Source of the DNA: Nitrospirota bacterium
GTDB taxonomy: Bacteria > Nitrospirota > Thermodesulfovibrionia > Thermodesulfovibrionales > JdFR-88
Assembly: GCA_021813405.1 (NCBI GenBank)
Contig: JAKAKS010000004.1
Coordinates: 1-32,581 of the forward strand
Length of the DNA: 32,581 bases
Direction of reading: 5' to 3'
Shown here: positions 21,299 to 28,346 of the stretch, in pieces
How positions within the stretch are numbered: position 1 is the stretch's first letter
Layout of the letters: the number at the start of each line of letters is the position of its first letter
The notes under the pieces: generated by a model
Seen by the model: only the letters and a program-made list of their open reading frames with translations
Told to the model about the DNA's origin: nothing
Databases searched by the model: none
Made by a program: the position numbers and the translations under genes

Positions 21299-22354
21299 TC
21301 AGAAACTCTTTGTTGCGCTGTGGCAATTAGTGCACAGGTCAAATCTGTGCTGGGCCTTGTATCTCCACAATTTACCCCAGTCTGAAGAATGGGGGACATG
21401 GCACGACAGGCAGTTAAAAGGCTTGCCTTTCCTCTTGGGGTCCTGCGGCCCCTGCAGCGGATGGCCGGCGGCTGAAAATCCGCCGATCACGTGAGGCCCC
21501 TGCCATATTTCCGGATGGCATCCCCTGCAAAGGAAGGGCACAGGTTTCCTCAGCAGTTTATCATTCCTGTTGGCGTGCGGAACATGGCACTTAAGGCACT
21601 GCCCGGCTGCTACAGGCGGATGGACCACCTTTTTATGGAATTTCAGATCGTCTGGCATTGCAGAGTCGTCATGGCAAGTAAAGCAGAGCTGCGGTATCGG
21701 ATAATTCAGCATGCGCATATTGTTGGAAGAATGAGGGTTATGGCAGTACGTGCACATGCCCGCGGCAACCGGCGGATGGACATTCTTACCCTTGAACCTT
21801 TTTTTGTCATGGCAGCCAAAACACAGGTCCGGCGGCTCCTTCCTCAGCAATTTTTCGTTATCGCTTGAATGCGGGTAATGGCATTTCATGCACATTCCCG
21901 CCGCAACCGGCGGATGGACCGTTTTTTTGGTGAACATGCCTTGATCATGGCAGTTGAAGCACAGGTCCGGTATCTTGTAATTGAGCAGTTTATCGTTGTC
22001 GCTTACGTGCGGGTTATGGCAGAAGGTGCACATGCCCTGGGCCACGGGCGGATGCACGTCCTTCCTGTGGAACTTGTAATCATCAGGCACAGAGTCGTCG
22101 GTATGGCACTGGAAGCAAAGGTCCGGCGGCTGGGCGGAAAGCCCCAGCTTGCCCGTAAATTTATGCGGCACGGTCGAGGCGTCCACGCCCGTGTGGCATG
22201 CCGTGCAGCCCATCTGCACCGCAGGATGCACAACCTTGCCCTCCGCTTTGTCCTTATGGCATTTTACGCACTTGTCTCCGTCGGCCCAGGCCGGCCCATG
22301 CACCGCAAGGGCCGCTATCATGGCCAGGACCAAAATCAAAACGCTTTTCTTCAT
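21299..22354 (-). CDS. Exported 13-heme cytochrome c (doubled-CXXCH repeat family)
   Basis: 351 aa with an N-terminal signal peptide (about 24 residues) and 13 CXXCH motifs by direct count. The body consists of ~45-residue units, each with two CXXCH plus VHPPV and NPH histidines that can serve as distal ligands, so bis-His hemes are expected. Residues ~28-85 are almost identical to the start of the neighbouring 19-heme protein, and the last three-heme cap also matches. The module with DDSxMP and KFH occurs at heme 3 and again at heme 9, a trace of internal duplication. AGGAG lies 7 nt before the ATG. It lies 39 nt after the 19-heme gene. Periplasmic or extracellular electron transfer is likely. 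Confidence 0.93.
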   Translation of the reverse strand: MKKSVLILVLAMIAALAVHGPAWADGDKCVKCHKDKAEGKVVHPAVQMGCTACHTGVDASTVPHKFTGKLGLSAQPPDLCFQCHTDDSVPDDYKFHRKDVHPPVAQGMCTFCHNPHVSDNDKLLNYKIPDLCFNCHDQGMFTKKTVHPPVAAGMCMKCHYPHSSDNEKLLRKEPPDLCFGCHDKKRFKGKNVHPPVAAGMCTYCHNPHSSNNMRMLNYPIPQLCFTCHDDSAMPDDLKFHKKVVHPPVAAGQCLKCHVPHANRNDKLLRKPVPFLCRGCHPEIWQGPHVIGGFSAAGHPLQGPQDPKRKGKPFNCLSCHVPHSSDWGKLWRYKAQHRFDLCTNCHSATKSF

Positions 22355-22393: not shown

Positions 22394-23854
22394 TTATTGC
22401 ATCTTTTCCGGATGGCAGTTTACGCATATATCGTACGGGTTCTTGGCCGGGAACCTGAATATGTACACCGAGTCGGACCCGTGCTGGTTATGGCAGCTCG
22501 TGCAGCAAAGCTCTCTGTGCGGCCGCCTGGGGTCCGGATACCCATGAGTGGGATGGCCCTTCTGGCTAAGCCCGGCTATGGCGTGGGGGCCTGCAACTTC
22601 CTGTGGATGGCACTGGTTGCAGACCTGGTTTACCTTTGGGAAAACCAGAAGCAGAGGGCTTTGAGATGTATGAGGCTTATGGCACATCAGGCAAAGCCCC
22701 GCGGCAACAGGCGGGTGCTGGACCTTGGGCAGAAACTGCACCTCCTGCGAGTGGCAGGTAAAACAGAGGTCCGGCACCGGCTTCCGGAGCAGCTTGTCAT
22801 TATCGGACTGGTGCGGAAAATGGCAGTACATGCACATCCCTATCTTCACCGGGCCATGGATCTTCCTGCCGCCCCAGAACTGCTGCCGGTCATGGCATCT
22901 GAAGCACAGATAAGGCGGAGGCACCCAAAGAAGCTTGGAATACCTGGATGAATGTGGAGAATGGCATTTAGGGCACATACCCGCCCTCACCGGAGGGTGC
23001 CCCACCGCTTTCCCGAATATAAGCGACTTGTCGTGGCAGTTAAGGCAGAGGTCCGGCGGCATCTGCACCAGCAGCTTCGGGTTGTCCGACTCGTGCGGCT
23101 TATGGCAGAAAAGACACATCCCGGCCTCGGCCGGCGGGTGCTTGTGCCTGTGGCCCATCAGCGCCTTTCCATCATGGCATCTGAAGCACAAATCCGGAGG
23201 TGTGGCCCTGAGCAGCTTTCTATGGTCCGACTGGTGCGGATAATGGCACATCAGGCACTGCCCCGCGAATACCGGAGGATGGACCGTCTTTTCCTTTACA
23301 AAATGCTTGTCATTGTGGCACATAAAGCACAGGTCCGGCGGCGGCTTCCGGAGCAATTTTTCATTATTGCTTGAGTGCGGGTTATGGCAGTAAATGCAAA
23401 GGCCGGCCATTACCGGCGGATGGATTGCGCTTTTGGCCAGGAATTCTTTTTTATCATGGCAGTTGAAACACAAATCAGGCGGCGTCTGTTTCAGCAGGTA
23501 CTTGTTTTTGCTTGTGTGCGGATCATGGCAGAAAGTGCACATGCCTTCGGCAACCGGCGGGTGGACCACAGATTGGTGGAATTTGAACCTGGCCGGCATC
23601 GCGGAGTCATCGTGGCACTGGAAGCACAGGTCCGGCGGCTGGGCGGAAAGCCCCAGGTCACCCGTGAACTTGTGCGGCACTGTGGATGCGTCCACCCCGG
23701 TATGGCAGGCCTCGCATCCCATCTGGACTGCAGGATGCACAACTTTGCCTTTGGCATGGTCTGCGTGGCATTTCAGGCAATCAGCCGACGAGACTCCTGC
23801 TAGGGAAAATACAAAAAAGAGCGCCGTGAGGACTGTGCGTATTGTCTTGCCCAT
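22394..23854 (-). CDS. Exported 19-heme cytochrome c (doubled-CXXCH repeat family)
   Basis: 486 aa from the ATG at 23854, which gives the signal peptide MGKTIRTVLTALFFVF...VSSA; upstream in-frame codons add a non-signal-like extension. Nineteen CXXCH motifs by direct count. It has a three-heme N-cap, 13 internal hemes in repeated ~45-residue double-heme units of the form DLCFxCH...VHPPVxAGxCxxCHxPH, and a three-heme C-cap containing GPHAIAGLSQKGHP. All hemes have nearby extra histidines. There is no lipobox, no TM anchor and no barrel, so it is soluble in the periplasm or secreted. An extended -10 box lies 12 nt upstream and no Shine-Dalgarno is visible. Paralog of the 13-heme gene downstream. 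Confidence 0.94.
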   Translation of the reverse strand: MGKTIRTVLTALFFVFSLAGVSSADCLKCHADHAKGKVVHPAVQMGCEACHTGVDASTVPHKFTGDLGLSAQPPDLCFQCHDDSAMPARFKFHQSVVHPPVAEGMCTFCHDPHTSKNKYLLKQTPPDLCFNCHDKKEFLAKSAIHPPVMAGLCIYCHNPHSSNNEKLLRKPPPDLCFMCHNDKHFVKEKTVHPPVFAGQCLMCHYPHQSDHRKLLRATPPDLCFRCHDGKALMGHRHKHPPAEAGMCLFCHKPHESDNPKLLVQMPPDLCLNCHDKSLIFGKAVGHPPVRAGMCPKCHSPHSSRYSKLLWVPPPYLCFRCHDRQQFWGGRKIHGPVKIGMCMYCHFPHQSDNDKLLRKPVPDLCFTCHSQEVQFLPKVQHPPVAAGLCLMCHKPHTSQSPLLLVFPKVNQVCNQCHPQEVAGPHAIAGLSQKGHPTHGYPDPRRPHRELCCTSCHNQHGSDSVYIFRFPAKNPYDICVNCHPEKMQ

Positions 23855-23866
23855 CGAAACATGGTC

Positions 23867-23875
23867 ATTATAACA
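23867..23875 (-). promoter_or_regulatory. Extended -10 promoter before the 19-heme gene
   Basis: Minus-strand TGT-TATAAT, a perfect extended -10, with only a weak TTGTTT at -35. The -10 ends 12 nt before the ATG, so the 5' leader would be about 5 nt. It lies in the 82-nt gap after the NHL gene and could give extra expression of the cytochromes. Confidence 0.5.
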
Positions 23876-23936
23876 CCACTTGGGGTAAAAACAAAAATTC
23901 ATGGCAGGCAAGGACTGCGCAGCGAAACGCAACCGC

Positions 23937-26116
<2,180 letters not shown>

Positions 26117-26149: not shown

Positions 26150-26185
26150 AAGCAAGGGGACTAAAATCGTCCCCTTGCTTTTTAA
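26150..26185 (+). terminator. Intrinsic terminator of tgt
   Basis: Perfect 12-bp stem AAGCAAGGGGAC (26150-26161) / GTCCCCTTGCTT (26169-26180), 7-nt loop, then TTTTT. It lies between the convergent tgt and cyc2-like genes; the U-run favours the tgt direction. Confidence 0.9.
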
Positions 26186-26191
26186 TATGCT

Positions 26192-27598
26192 TTAGAACAC
26201 CACGTCCACAAGCACCTTGAATATCTTGTCCGTCTCGCTTGCCCCCTGTGCTACAGGAATAGTGCCGCCCGTCAGGTAATTGCTCTTCACATCGGCGTAG
26301 ATGAACTGCACCTTTGTGTTGTACCAGGGCAGGTAGTTCAGGCCCACAAGCCAGGTGTGCTGTGTTCTTGCGGGGTCGAAGTCGTTAGGGTCAACATGGA
26401 AATTATTCACCCAGTTGTACTGGCCCACTACGCCATACGTCCTGTTATAAAAATAATCCGCCTCAACGGCGCCGCCGTTAAAGCTCCTTTTATCGCCGGC
26501 CCCTAGTGTGCCCGGCAAATTACCCTCGAAAGTACCAAGCGGCGCCAGCCCTGTTTCCTGGCCGAAGCCGAAGATGCCCTTTGCCTCAACAAGGTGCTGG
26601 CCGGCATCGCCCAGGTCCTGCTCCAGGGAGGCGTCAATATATTGTCTGTTTACATGGGTGCTGCCTATGAAGGTCGTCACACCGGTATCAGACACGTTCT
26701 CCCGTCCGGTATATACCGCGCCGCCAAAAGTGACCGAGCCATGCGGCAGGCTCTGGTCCCAGGCAAGCCTTCCATACAGTCCAAACGGGTTGCCCGTTGC
26801 GCCCTCGGCAGTGCCAAAAGGCGTAGCCGGCAAGCTATGCATGAATGAAGCCGCAACCCCGTCGGCGTCTTCCACGTTGCCGCCCCTGGTTGCGCCTATG
26901 GCCGCATAGAGCCGGTTGTCCAGGAAATATCCGTGAATCACGCCGCCAAGGTTGTTGCCGTCCCAGAAATTGTAAGTCCAGCCCTTGTTCAGCACCCAGG
27001 GAAGCCCTTCGGTGTCCGGTGAGGCTATATCCCTGTCCCAGCCGCCGAAGCTGTTAAACGGGTCCGCGGCGGTCGGCAATCCGTAAAAAAGCACCGCTCC
27101 TATGGTGTCGCCGTTGCTGAAAGGATACGCGAAGGCCACCTTGGATACGGCCACGCTGAAGCTGCCACCCGGTATCGAGCCGCTCTCCACGCTGGTAAAC
27201 ACGCCTGCGTACTTGTAAATGCGGCTTGCAAAAAATATCTGCATGTTATCGATCTGGGTTGTGTTTACGTTGTAAGAATTATTTACCGGATTGGGATTGG
27301 GCGCAGAGCCATCCTGCTCAAGCTGGTATGGCTCAAAGATGATGCGCGCGGACACGGGAAACACGTAAAAAAGATTAAGCCTGTCGTTTTTGATGACGTT
27401 CCAGTCCGGCGACGCGTCCGTATATGCGTTTACCTTGAACTGCCTTCCGTACTGGTTTAAGTTGGGCCATACCGTATGGCAGGCCGAGCACGGCGCTTTT
27501 ATCTGCCTGGCAAAAGAAGGAACGGCCTCCGCCCTCTGCGTTACAGAAAAGACAAGAACCGGCATGAGCAAGGCAAGCAGCAGCAAAAGTTTCTTCAT
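26192..27598 (-). CDS. Cyc2-like fused monoheme cytochrome-porin
   Basis: 468 aa from the ATG at 27598, fixed by AGGAGG upstream and by the signal peptide (cleavage near Ala25). The mature N-terminus reads VPSFARQ..., one heme site C37SACH41, then TVWPNLNQYGRQFKVNAYT. This is the N-terminal pattern of Cyc2-type outer-membrane cytochromes, where a small heme plug is fused to a ~16-strand barrel. The remaining ~400 residues alternate as barrel strands and end in ...DVVF, a C-terminal Phe. Cyc2 oxidises Fe(II) at the cell surface, but related proteins occur in organisms not known to oxidise iron, so the donor is inferred. It lies 13 nt after the cupredoxin gene and is cotranscribed with it. Confidence 0.75.
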   Translation of the reverse strand: MKKLLLLLALLMPVLVFSVTQRAEAVPSFARQIKAPCSACHTVWPNLNQYGRQFKVNAYTDASPDWNVIKNDRLNLFYVFPVSARIIFEPYQLEQDGSAPNPNPVNNSYNVNTTQIDNMQIFFASRIYKYAGVFTSVESGSIPGGSFSVAVSKVAFAYPFSNGDTIGAVLFYGLPTAADPFNSFGGWDRDIASPDTEGLPWVLNKGWTYNFWDGNNLGGVIHGYFLDNRLYAAIGATRGGNVEDADGVAASFMHSLPATPFGTAEGATGNPFGLYGRLAWDQSLPHGSVTFGGAVYTGRENVSDTGVTTFIGSTHVNRQYIDASLEQDLGDAGQHLVEAKGIFGFGQETGLAPLGTFEGNLPGTLGAGDKRSFNGGAVEADYFYNRTYGVVGQYNWVNNFHVDPNDFDPARTQHTWLVGLNYLPWYNTKVQFIYADVKSNYLTGGTIPVAQGASETDKIFKVLVDVVF

Positions 27599-27611
27599 GC
27601 AATTCCCTCCT

Positions 27612-28346
27612 TTAGAAAGTTTTTCTGGCTGCGGTTTTCCTGTAAGGTATCTGGATTGTGGTGGCCCTACCCCCTGACACATTTACGTTTTTAACGTCCT
27701 CGGTCCCAAGGTCCGCATGCCAGGCCTCCACAGTATACGTGCCGGGCGGCACATTCCTTATCGCAAAATGCCCGTTAGAGTCCGTGACGGCCGCATACGG
27801 ATTATCGAATACGTAAAGATAACCGCGCATCCAGGGGTGGACATCGCAGGTTATCTTCATTATGCCCGTTTGGGTAAGCACTCTTGTCACCTGCGTTCCT
27901 TTCCCCTGCAGGCTAACATTGTAATAAGTAGTGTGATGCATGTATGTGTGGATATTGTGGAATATCGGGTCGGCATTTCTGAATATGAGAGGGCTGCCCA
28001 CAAAGCCTATTCCAGTGTGCGGCACGAATGCGCATTTGCTGTTGTCCACAACATAAGGCTGCCTTGGCGCCGGGGCCCCAGCCGGGATGTTTTTCAGGAA
28101 AACGACCACGTTCTGTATTTTTTTATTTCTGATCAGGTATTTTTGCGCCGGCATGGTCCTGGGGCAGTAATTCATATTCATCGTCGAGTGCACAACCGGG
28201 TCCCTGGGCGGCACGCCGTCAAACACAACCGTCCCTTCAACCGTTCCGCCATTGCTTACCATTCTCACTGTGTATGCGTGCGCCGGGACAGGCAACCGGA
28301 ATGCAAATATCAAAAGCAGCAATACCAAAAGGCGTTTCCTGAACAT
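27612..28346 (-). CDS. Exported amicyanin-like cupredoxin with carboxypeptidase-regulatory-like tail
   Basis: 244 aa from the ATG at 28346 (GGGAGG 5 nt upstream; the GTG 3 nt earlier is too close). Signal peptide ends near Ala24. The type-1 copper site is visible: His130 (DPIFHNIH), Cys167, His170 and Met173 in CDVHPWM, the tight Cys-x2-His-x2-Met loop of amicyanin. Residues ~180-235 (VTDSNGHFAIRNVPPGTYTVEAWH) form the carboxypeptidase-regulatory-like strand pattern. Such proteins recur in environmental bacteria without assigned function. Placed 13 nt before the Cyc2-like gene, it is a good candidate periplasmic partner, as rusticyanin is for Cyc2 in Acidithiobacillus. Confidence 0.82.
   Translation of the reverse strand: MFRKRLLVLLLLIFAFRLPVPAHAYTVRMVSNGGTVEGTVVFDGVPPRDPVVHSTMNMNYCPRTMPAQKYLIRNKKIQNVVVFLKNIPAGAPAPRQPYVVDNSKCAFVPHTGIGFVGSPLIFRNADPIFHNIHTYMHHTTYYNVSLQGKGTQVTRVLTQTGIMKITCDVHPWMRGYLYVFDNPYAAVTDSNGHFAIRNVPPGTYTVEAWHADLGTEDVKNVNVSGGRATTIQIPYRKTAARKTF

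Follow-up and report, generated by a model that had tools for sequence, protein, structure and literature searches.

The window analyzed here (32,581 nt, contig C13 of the 2.9-Mb genome of a sulfur-cycling member of the Nitrospirota) carries two neighboring genes whose products are probably a heme channel in the outer membrane and a copper protein in the periplasm, exchanging electrons with each other. The pair is real and conserved, and it is a variant of the Cyc2-plus-cupredoxin design. From the gene pair, its conservation, the predicted folds, the metal-ligand residues, and the repeated association of the two protein kinds, all of which are observed, we infer the electron transfer, its direction, and the donor, and we lean moderately toward a relay that would run inward across the outer membrane to the periplasm, from Fe(II) or a similar outside donor to an oxidase. 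The closest named relatives of the window are MAGs labeled "Nitrospirae bacterium"; one more distant relative is labeled Thermodesulfovibrionales. In the open-access literature, we found no paper on the environment or pH of these MAGs in which the bins are named; those of PMC9948709 carry other names.

Organization of the locus

Both genes lie on the minus strand. The upstream gene, P0002 (27612..28346; 244 aa), has an ATG at 28346 preceded by a GGGAGG ribosome site and encodes a signal peptide followed by a cupredoxin apparently nested in a CarboxypepD_reg/transthyretin-like domain. After an intergenic gap of 13 nt comes P0001 (26192..27598; 468 aa from the ATG at 27598, with a GGAGG ribosome site and a signal peptide), which encodes a Cyc2-like fusion of a monoheme cytochrome and a 16-strand outer-membrane barrel. 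A 12-bp GC-rich hairpin read from the sequence 3′ of the barrel gene (26150..26180, minus strand) is a possible terminator (it is absent from the list produced by the terminator scan). The 13-nt gap and the hairpin after the second gene make a two-gene unit likely, and both reading frames agree with an earlier note on this DNA, which had described a two-gene operon of a heme barrel and a copper protein with a Cys-x2-His-x2-Met loop.

Divergent from the pair, and separated from it by a shared 165-bp intergenic region, is P0003 (28512..29999, plus strand), a pentaheme c554-like cytochrome (PF13435, 43.2 bits) also found in locus L050. Its similarity to ExtKL is weak (42.7 bits, against a cutoff of 250), and we reject it as a constant third member, since among the loci inspected it adjoins the pair only in the genus of the window. 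Elsewhere in the window, two minus-strand genes (21299-22354 and 22394-23932) encode multiheme cytochromes, with 13 CXXCH motifs in the first and 19 in the second; the latter matches the DmsE/GSU2203 doubled-CXXCH kind, and a gene for an NHL-repeat protein (23937-24998) adjoins them.

A type-1 copper domain probably nested in a split sandwich

The predicted model of P0002 is confident (mean pLDDT, 90.9), and its best Foldseek match is an amicyanin. The cupredoxin domain (27807..28064, minus strand; residues 95-180) aligns with plastocyanin 1bxu (Z 12.6; 83 aligned residues; rmsd 1.6) and with amicyanins (Z about 11), and it combines this fold with His ... Cys-x2-His-x2-Met, as a type-1 cupredoxin does. 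In ATG numbering, the predicted copper ligands are His130 (27957-27959), Cys167 (27846-27848), His170 (27837-27839), and Met173 (27828-27830), all encoded on the minus strand, the last three within a loop, CDVHPWM, whose C-x2-H-x2-M spacing is that of amicyanin. All four ligands are invariant in 9/9 close relatives (His131, Cys168, His171, and Met174 in GTG numbering), and the loop is kept in all 9 cupredoxins of the "pair" group and in all 17 from Nitrospiria; the amicyanin-like copper domain proposed in the earlier note is upheld, with its ligands kept in these groups. Also invariant in the alignment of the nine close relatives are Cys62 and Cys106, which may form a disulfide. The likeness to amicyanin and plastocyanin is one of fold (Z 11-12.6) and, for amicyanin, of loop spacing: identity is only about 20 to 25%, the domain is apparently nested in another, and the partner is a barrel rather than methylamine dehydrogenase or a photosystem.

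In the intact P0002, the CarboxypepD_reg match found by Pfam is confined to the C-terminal part of the domain (27630..27806, minus strand; residues 181-239; PF13620, 37.6 bits, profile positions 30-79), which had been read as a tail that could anchor or dock the copper protein. That reading gives way to one in which two halves of a single domain flank the cupredoxin. A match of the model to teneurin 8fia (Z 10.7; 91 aligned residues) spans residues 25 to 239, as expected of a sandwich lying on both sides of the cupredoxin, and when residues ~25-94 (28065..28274, minus strand) are joined to residues 181-239, the PF13620 score rises from 37.6 to 43.8 bits and the profile start moves from 30 to 12 (12-79). 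Halves joined likewise in a paralog (L028) score 43.8 bits against CarboxypepD_reg (profile 15-79). Together, the teneurin span and the gain on joining argue, with moderate confidence, that the copper domain is nested inside a split CarboxypepD_reg-like domain.

Two better-known identities for P0002 were considered and rejected. No rusticyanin family model occurs among its NCBIfam matches up to an E value of 1 (NCBIfam presumably includes such a model). AcoP structures do appear among its fold matches (TMt about 0.45), but P0002 differs from AcoP in the presence of the second, split domain and in the lack of an adjoining oxidase. The earlier statement that rusticyanin is a different type of cupredoxin holds for the protein family; as a comparison of operon position it needs amending, as Cup/AcoP has no less a claim than rusticyanin to be the counterpart within the rus operon.

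A Cyc2-like barrel in a separate deep clade

The barrel model has 16 strands (pTM, 0.70; mean pLDDT, 65, with the heme segment under 50 and its placement relative to the pore thus of low confidence), and its PDB matches are 16-strand porins (Z 20-22.5), among them OprO 4rjw (Z 20.5) and OprP 2o4v (Z 20.3), the porin templates named for Cyc2 in PMC8406198. The N-terminal sequence runs in the order AVPSFARQI-KAP-CSACH-TVW-PNL, with a single heme c attachment site (CSACH, 27476..27490, minus strand), and the final residue is Phe. As such, the 16-strand barrel with one heme c site that had been anticipated is borne out at the level of prediction. Like the Cyc2 proteins of Mariprofundus and Acidithiobacillus and Cyt572 of Leptospirillum, the protein has a signal peptide, one N-terminal CXXCH followed by PXL, a predicted porin-like barrel of 16 strands, a C-terminal Phe, and a length (468 aa) above the 365-aa minimum for Cyc2; a single CXXCH with PXL just after it is found in all eight barrels of the "pair" group.

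The published Cyc2 motif draws the line elsewhere. This motif, AXPXFAR[QK][TY] upstream of CXXCH, with PXFAR[QK][TY] used as a filter (PMC8406198), has its counterpart in the window at AVPSFARQ (27503..27526, minus strand), where AVPSFARQI ends in I. None of the eight "pair" barrels passes the strict motif or the filter and all eight pass a relaxed form, whereas of the 61 barrels outside this group, the strict pattern together with CXXCH fits 44 and the shorter filter fits 46. When 69 Cyc2-like barrels are placed in a tree, the eight form one clade on a long stem (100/100). Their sister is a FARQT-type clade to which plasmid-borne copies of A. ferrooxidans, Caballeronia, and others belong, a placement with support of only 84/49 in a tree built without cluster 1 or 3 references. 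Judged by its sequence, the window barrel is Cyc2-like and belongs to a separate deep clade; since it failed the test of the published motif, we do not file it as Cyc2. The likeness to Cyc2 claimed earlier stands for the heme site, the PXL, the strand number, and the relaxed motif and falls short on the strict one.

Conservation of the pair and its neighborhood in close relatives

A close barrel (43 to 100% identity) occurs in 8 of 61 related genomes, and the cupredoxin gene is directly upstream in every one of the eight, which answers the survey of adjacency suggested in the earlier note; a ninth named locus, L056 (UBA9159), also has a cupredoxin beside its barrel. This conservation is far above chance.

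What follows the pair is less constant. A CydA-like protein is encoded downstream in G006, G010, and G037, and a broken copy in G008, whereas the window, G001, G007, G011, and L056 have neither a CydA-like gene downstream of the pair nor any oxidase gene adjoining it. Two CydA-like neighbors that were tested match PF01654 (46.2 and 52.5 bits); the G006 copy has 14 hydrophobic segments and is followed by genes for monoheme and diheme cytochromes c and by a Usp gene. Eight of the 11 rows compared retain the His that corresponds to the first heme His in Geobacillus CydA; the three distant rows have Met there, and two of these (L088 and L107) are the same gene. In G008, the CydA-like gene (L100:7955-8851 onward) is broken by internal stops while the pair is intact, indicating that the oxidase can be lost without loss of the pair. 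At L107:21-9123 (G005), genes for a CydA-like protein and two monoheme cytochromes adjoin those for an enzyme of the type II DMSO-reductase family (alpha, beta, and gamma subunits and a chaperone), an arrangement that suggests an exchangeable bd-like/cytochrome module.

Cyc2-like barrels and cupredoxins across phyla

Profiles for the two proteins match widely in Nitrospirota: that for the barrel in 170 of 395 genomes (E values up to 1e-3) and that for the cupredoxin in 204 of 395 (up to 1e-15). Among the matches listed, a listed cupredoxin lies no more than 5 kb from 28 of 149 Cyc2-like barrels (24 of 110 genomes), against about 0.43 expected by chance if genomes of 3.2 Mb are assumed. A scan of named genomes gave 29 barrel loci: the cupredoxin gene is beside the barrel in 14 (L050-L057, L067, L073, L074, L076, L077 [in part], and L078), one (L075) ends after the barrel, and 14 have no cupredoxin in the available flank (13 annotated; L065 left unannotated). 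By phylum, five of six Gemmatimonadota loci from the barrel scan have the cupredoxin (one cut by a contig end) and the sixth ends after the barrel, and the 11 proteobacterial loci have none in the available flank (10 annotated; L065 cut and unannotated). A pairing peculiar to the lineage of the window is therefore rejected: the same cupredoxin family adjoins other barrels in Nitrospirota and Gemmatimonadota. Many barrels of Nitrospirota, the phylum of the Cyc2 homologs of Nitrospira and "Ca. Manganitrophus," adjoin this cupredoxin family, although the sampled Nitrospiria barrels fall in clades other than that of the window. In the open-access literature (subscription papers were outside the scope of the search), we found no report of a Cyc2-cupredoxin pairing for Nitrospirota or Gemmatimonadota; PMC9040806 discusses the Cyc2 of Nitrospirota, and its main text has no mention of cupredoxin, plastocyanin, or copper.

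The Acidithiobacillus rus operon has the order cyc2-cyc1-cup-coxBACD-rus (PMC10654088) and likewise encodes a Cyc2-type barrel together with a cupredoxin. Gemmatimonadota loci L076 and L078 (barrel-diheme c-cupredoxin-COX2-COX1) share that order, whereas no cox genes adjoin the window pair, whose cupredoxin has an amicyanin-like C-x2-H-x2-M loop within a split CarboxypepD_reg-like domain.

In many Nitrospirota regions, the gene order is barrel-diheme c-cupredoxin, often followed by a histidine-kinase-like gene, one of which (in L174) was confirmed by Pfam. Such neighbors raise the thought that the relay is sensory, informing a kinase or chemoreceptor of iron or of redox conditions outside the cell instead of serving respiration. 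A PAS-histidine kinase after the Nitrospiria cluster L174, a chemoreceptor after the pair in L053, and iron sensing as raised for Cyc2 in PMC12016527 are in line with this idea, but no sensor gene adjoins the window pair and oxidase genes adjoin the pair elsewhere, and we regard sensing as very improbable.

Probable repeated joining of the two proteins

In the cupredoxin tree, "pair" cupredoxins group with nos-type ones (99/96), apart from those of Nitrospiria and Gemmatimonadota, and the L067 cupredoxin falls inside the nos-type group (the "nos" label covers 23 rows, and the neighborhoods of 13 of these, from seven loci, were inspected). Forcing together the 31 Cyc2-linked rows of the 55 (including L105, a second G007 copy with no barrel in view) carries a penalty of 103 log units and is rejected (AU p, 2.3e-6). 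The linked rows of the barrel tree require five changes, and a single clade is again rejected (AU p, 1.8e-59; 27 linked against 41 rows, with one cut row left out). Both tests are to be read with caution, as the neighborhoods were already known when the linked groups were defined and long branches are present. With that proviso they reject one ancestral pairing and indicate that the pairing in the window arose separately from other Cyc2-cupredoxin pairings, in keeping with the independent origin that had been proposed. Because a single clade is rejected for both linked cupredoxins and linked barrels, the simplest account of these trees is that the same two protein kinds were joined repeatedly, which favors a working partnership.

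Paralogous cupredoxins, along with the same CydA-like/cytochrome set, also occur in nos clusters. Six loci (L096, L097, L101, L102, L104, and L108) are nos-type clusters with two cupredoxin paralogs, one of which lacks the copper Cys (SNxHxWM/L type) and carries an insertion following its first His. These clusters contain NosR- and NosD-type matches, with other neighbors judged by eye; L101 is the sole locus with NosZ matched by a model (TIGR04244, 809 bits). The company of nos genes (NosD- and NosR-type matches, NosZ, and others assigned by eye) and the paralog type without a copper Cys would suit a role in copper handling, with the cupredoxin carrying or chaperoning copper and the barrel acting as a redox-gated channel for copper or iron. 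We consider this improbable: linked cupredoxins retain the type-1 loop, the heme site is retained in 8/8 barrels, and the neighbors are cytochromes and oxidases.

Direction and energetics of the proposed relay

In the inward relay that we favor, the barrel protein, whose N-terminal segment would bear a single heme c and whose channel would open to the outside, would be reduced by a soluble donor outside the cell, Fe(II) being the simplest candidate. Its heme would in turn reduce the type-1 copper protein of the periplasm, the copper domain of which would be held inside the transthyretin-like sandwich. From there, electrons would pass through c-type cytochromes to a terminal oxidase: in some relatives a bd-like subunit encoded next door, in Gemmatimonadota the coxBA pair next door, and for the window genome perhaps an aa3-type oxidase encoded elsewhere. 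That genome has such an oxidase (PF00115, 479 bits, with the aa3 label taken from neighboring subunits by eye) and also encodes subunit I of a bd oxidase, at 446 aa of ordinary length. Given 208 mV for the Cyc2 of Mariprofundus (PMC8406198) and +120 to +370 mV for most single-domain cupredoxins (PMC4059628), transfer from Fe(II) through heme to copper can be downhill at neutral pH, to the extent that values from related proteins apply.

Several observations count against this relay or its direction. The strict Cyc2 motif failed, and the heme segment of the model is not confident. In the window and in four of its relatives (G001, G007, G011, and L056), the pair has no oxidase gene beside it. 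In nos clusters, electrons or copper would flow past the paralogous cupredoxins toward a reductase, and dsrA, present in 13 of 13 genomes tested, that of the window included, makes an anaerobic life with electron export possible. The last two points lend themselves to a relay running the other way, in which electrons from the quinone pool would reach the copper protein by way of a bd-like membrane protein and c-type cytochromes and would leave through the barrel to an outside acceptor, e.g., Fe(III). Family-wide dsrA, the nearby multiheme cytochromes of the window, and the bd-like/cytochrome sets in nos clusters and beside the DMSO-reductase-family enzyme, which make quinol-to-reductase flow plausible, are all compatible with such export. 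A single-heme barrel is, however, the characterized design for Fe(II) oxidation (PMC8406198), and Gemmatimonadota place the same set beside COX1 and COX2, so that we hold the outward direction to be unlikely and retain the inward one.

A separate observation concerns cytochrome c oxidase subunit II, the genes for which have an in-frame TGA at the first CuA cysteine in G000 (L195:6202-7125, minus strand; TYDIF-U-TEYCGVGHSDM) and in G011 (L196:4747-5691, plus strand; TYLGT-U-NSFCGMGHADM); the G006 protein has Cys at this position. In both G000 and G011, selB is above the cutoff, and a short hairpin can form after the TGA, with fold z-scores that are not significant. On the strength of these sequences, a selenocysteine copper ligand is possible in the two oxidases, and we found no paper on selenocysteine at the first CuA cysteine of this subunit.

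Implications

The periplasmic exit of electrons from Cyc2 is best known for acidophiles with rusticyanin. Recurrence of the pairing in other bacteria points to a wider iron-oxidation-like wiring, and the broader proposition, to which we give slightly less than even weight, is that cupredoxins nested in a split transthyretin/CarboxypepD_reg-like domain generally serve the Cyc2-type heme porins of Nitrospirota and Gemmatimonadota as electron partners in the periplasm, recruited several times (once by the clade of the window) into a rusticyanin-like role feeding bd-like or heme-copper oxidases. The "pair" barrel clade also illustrates that Cyc2-like families can be missed by the published motif filter. 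If the recurrent copper partner holds, it would provide both a two-gene marker and a protein pair that can be expressed and tested, would identify the carrier still missing for a large share of the bacteria with Cyc2, and would help to explain the presence of Cyc2 genes in organisms without known iron oxidation.
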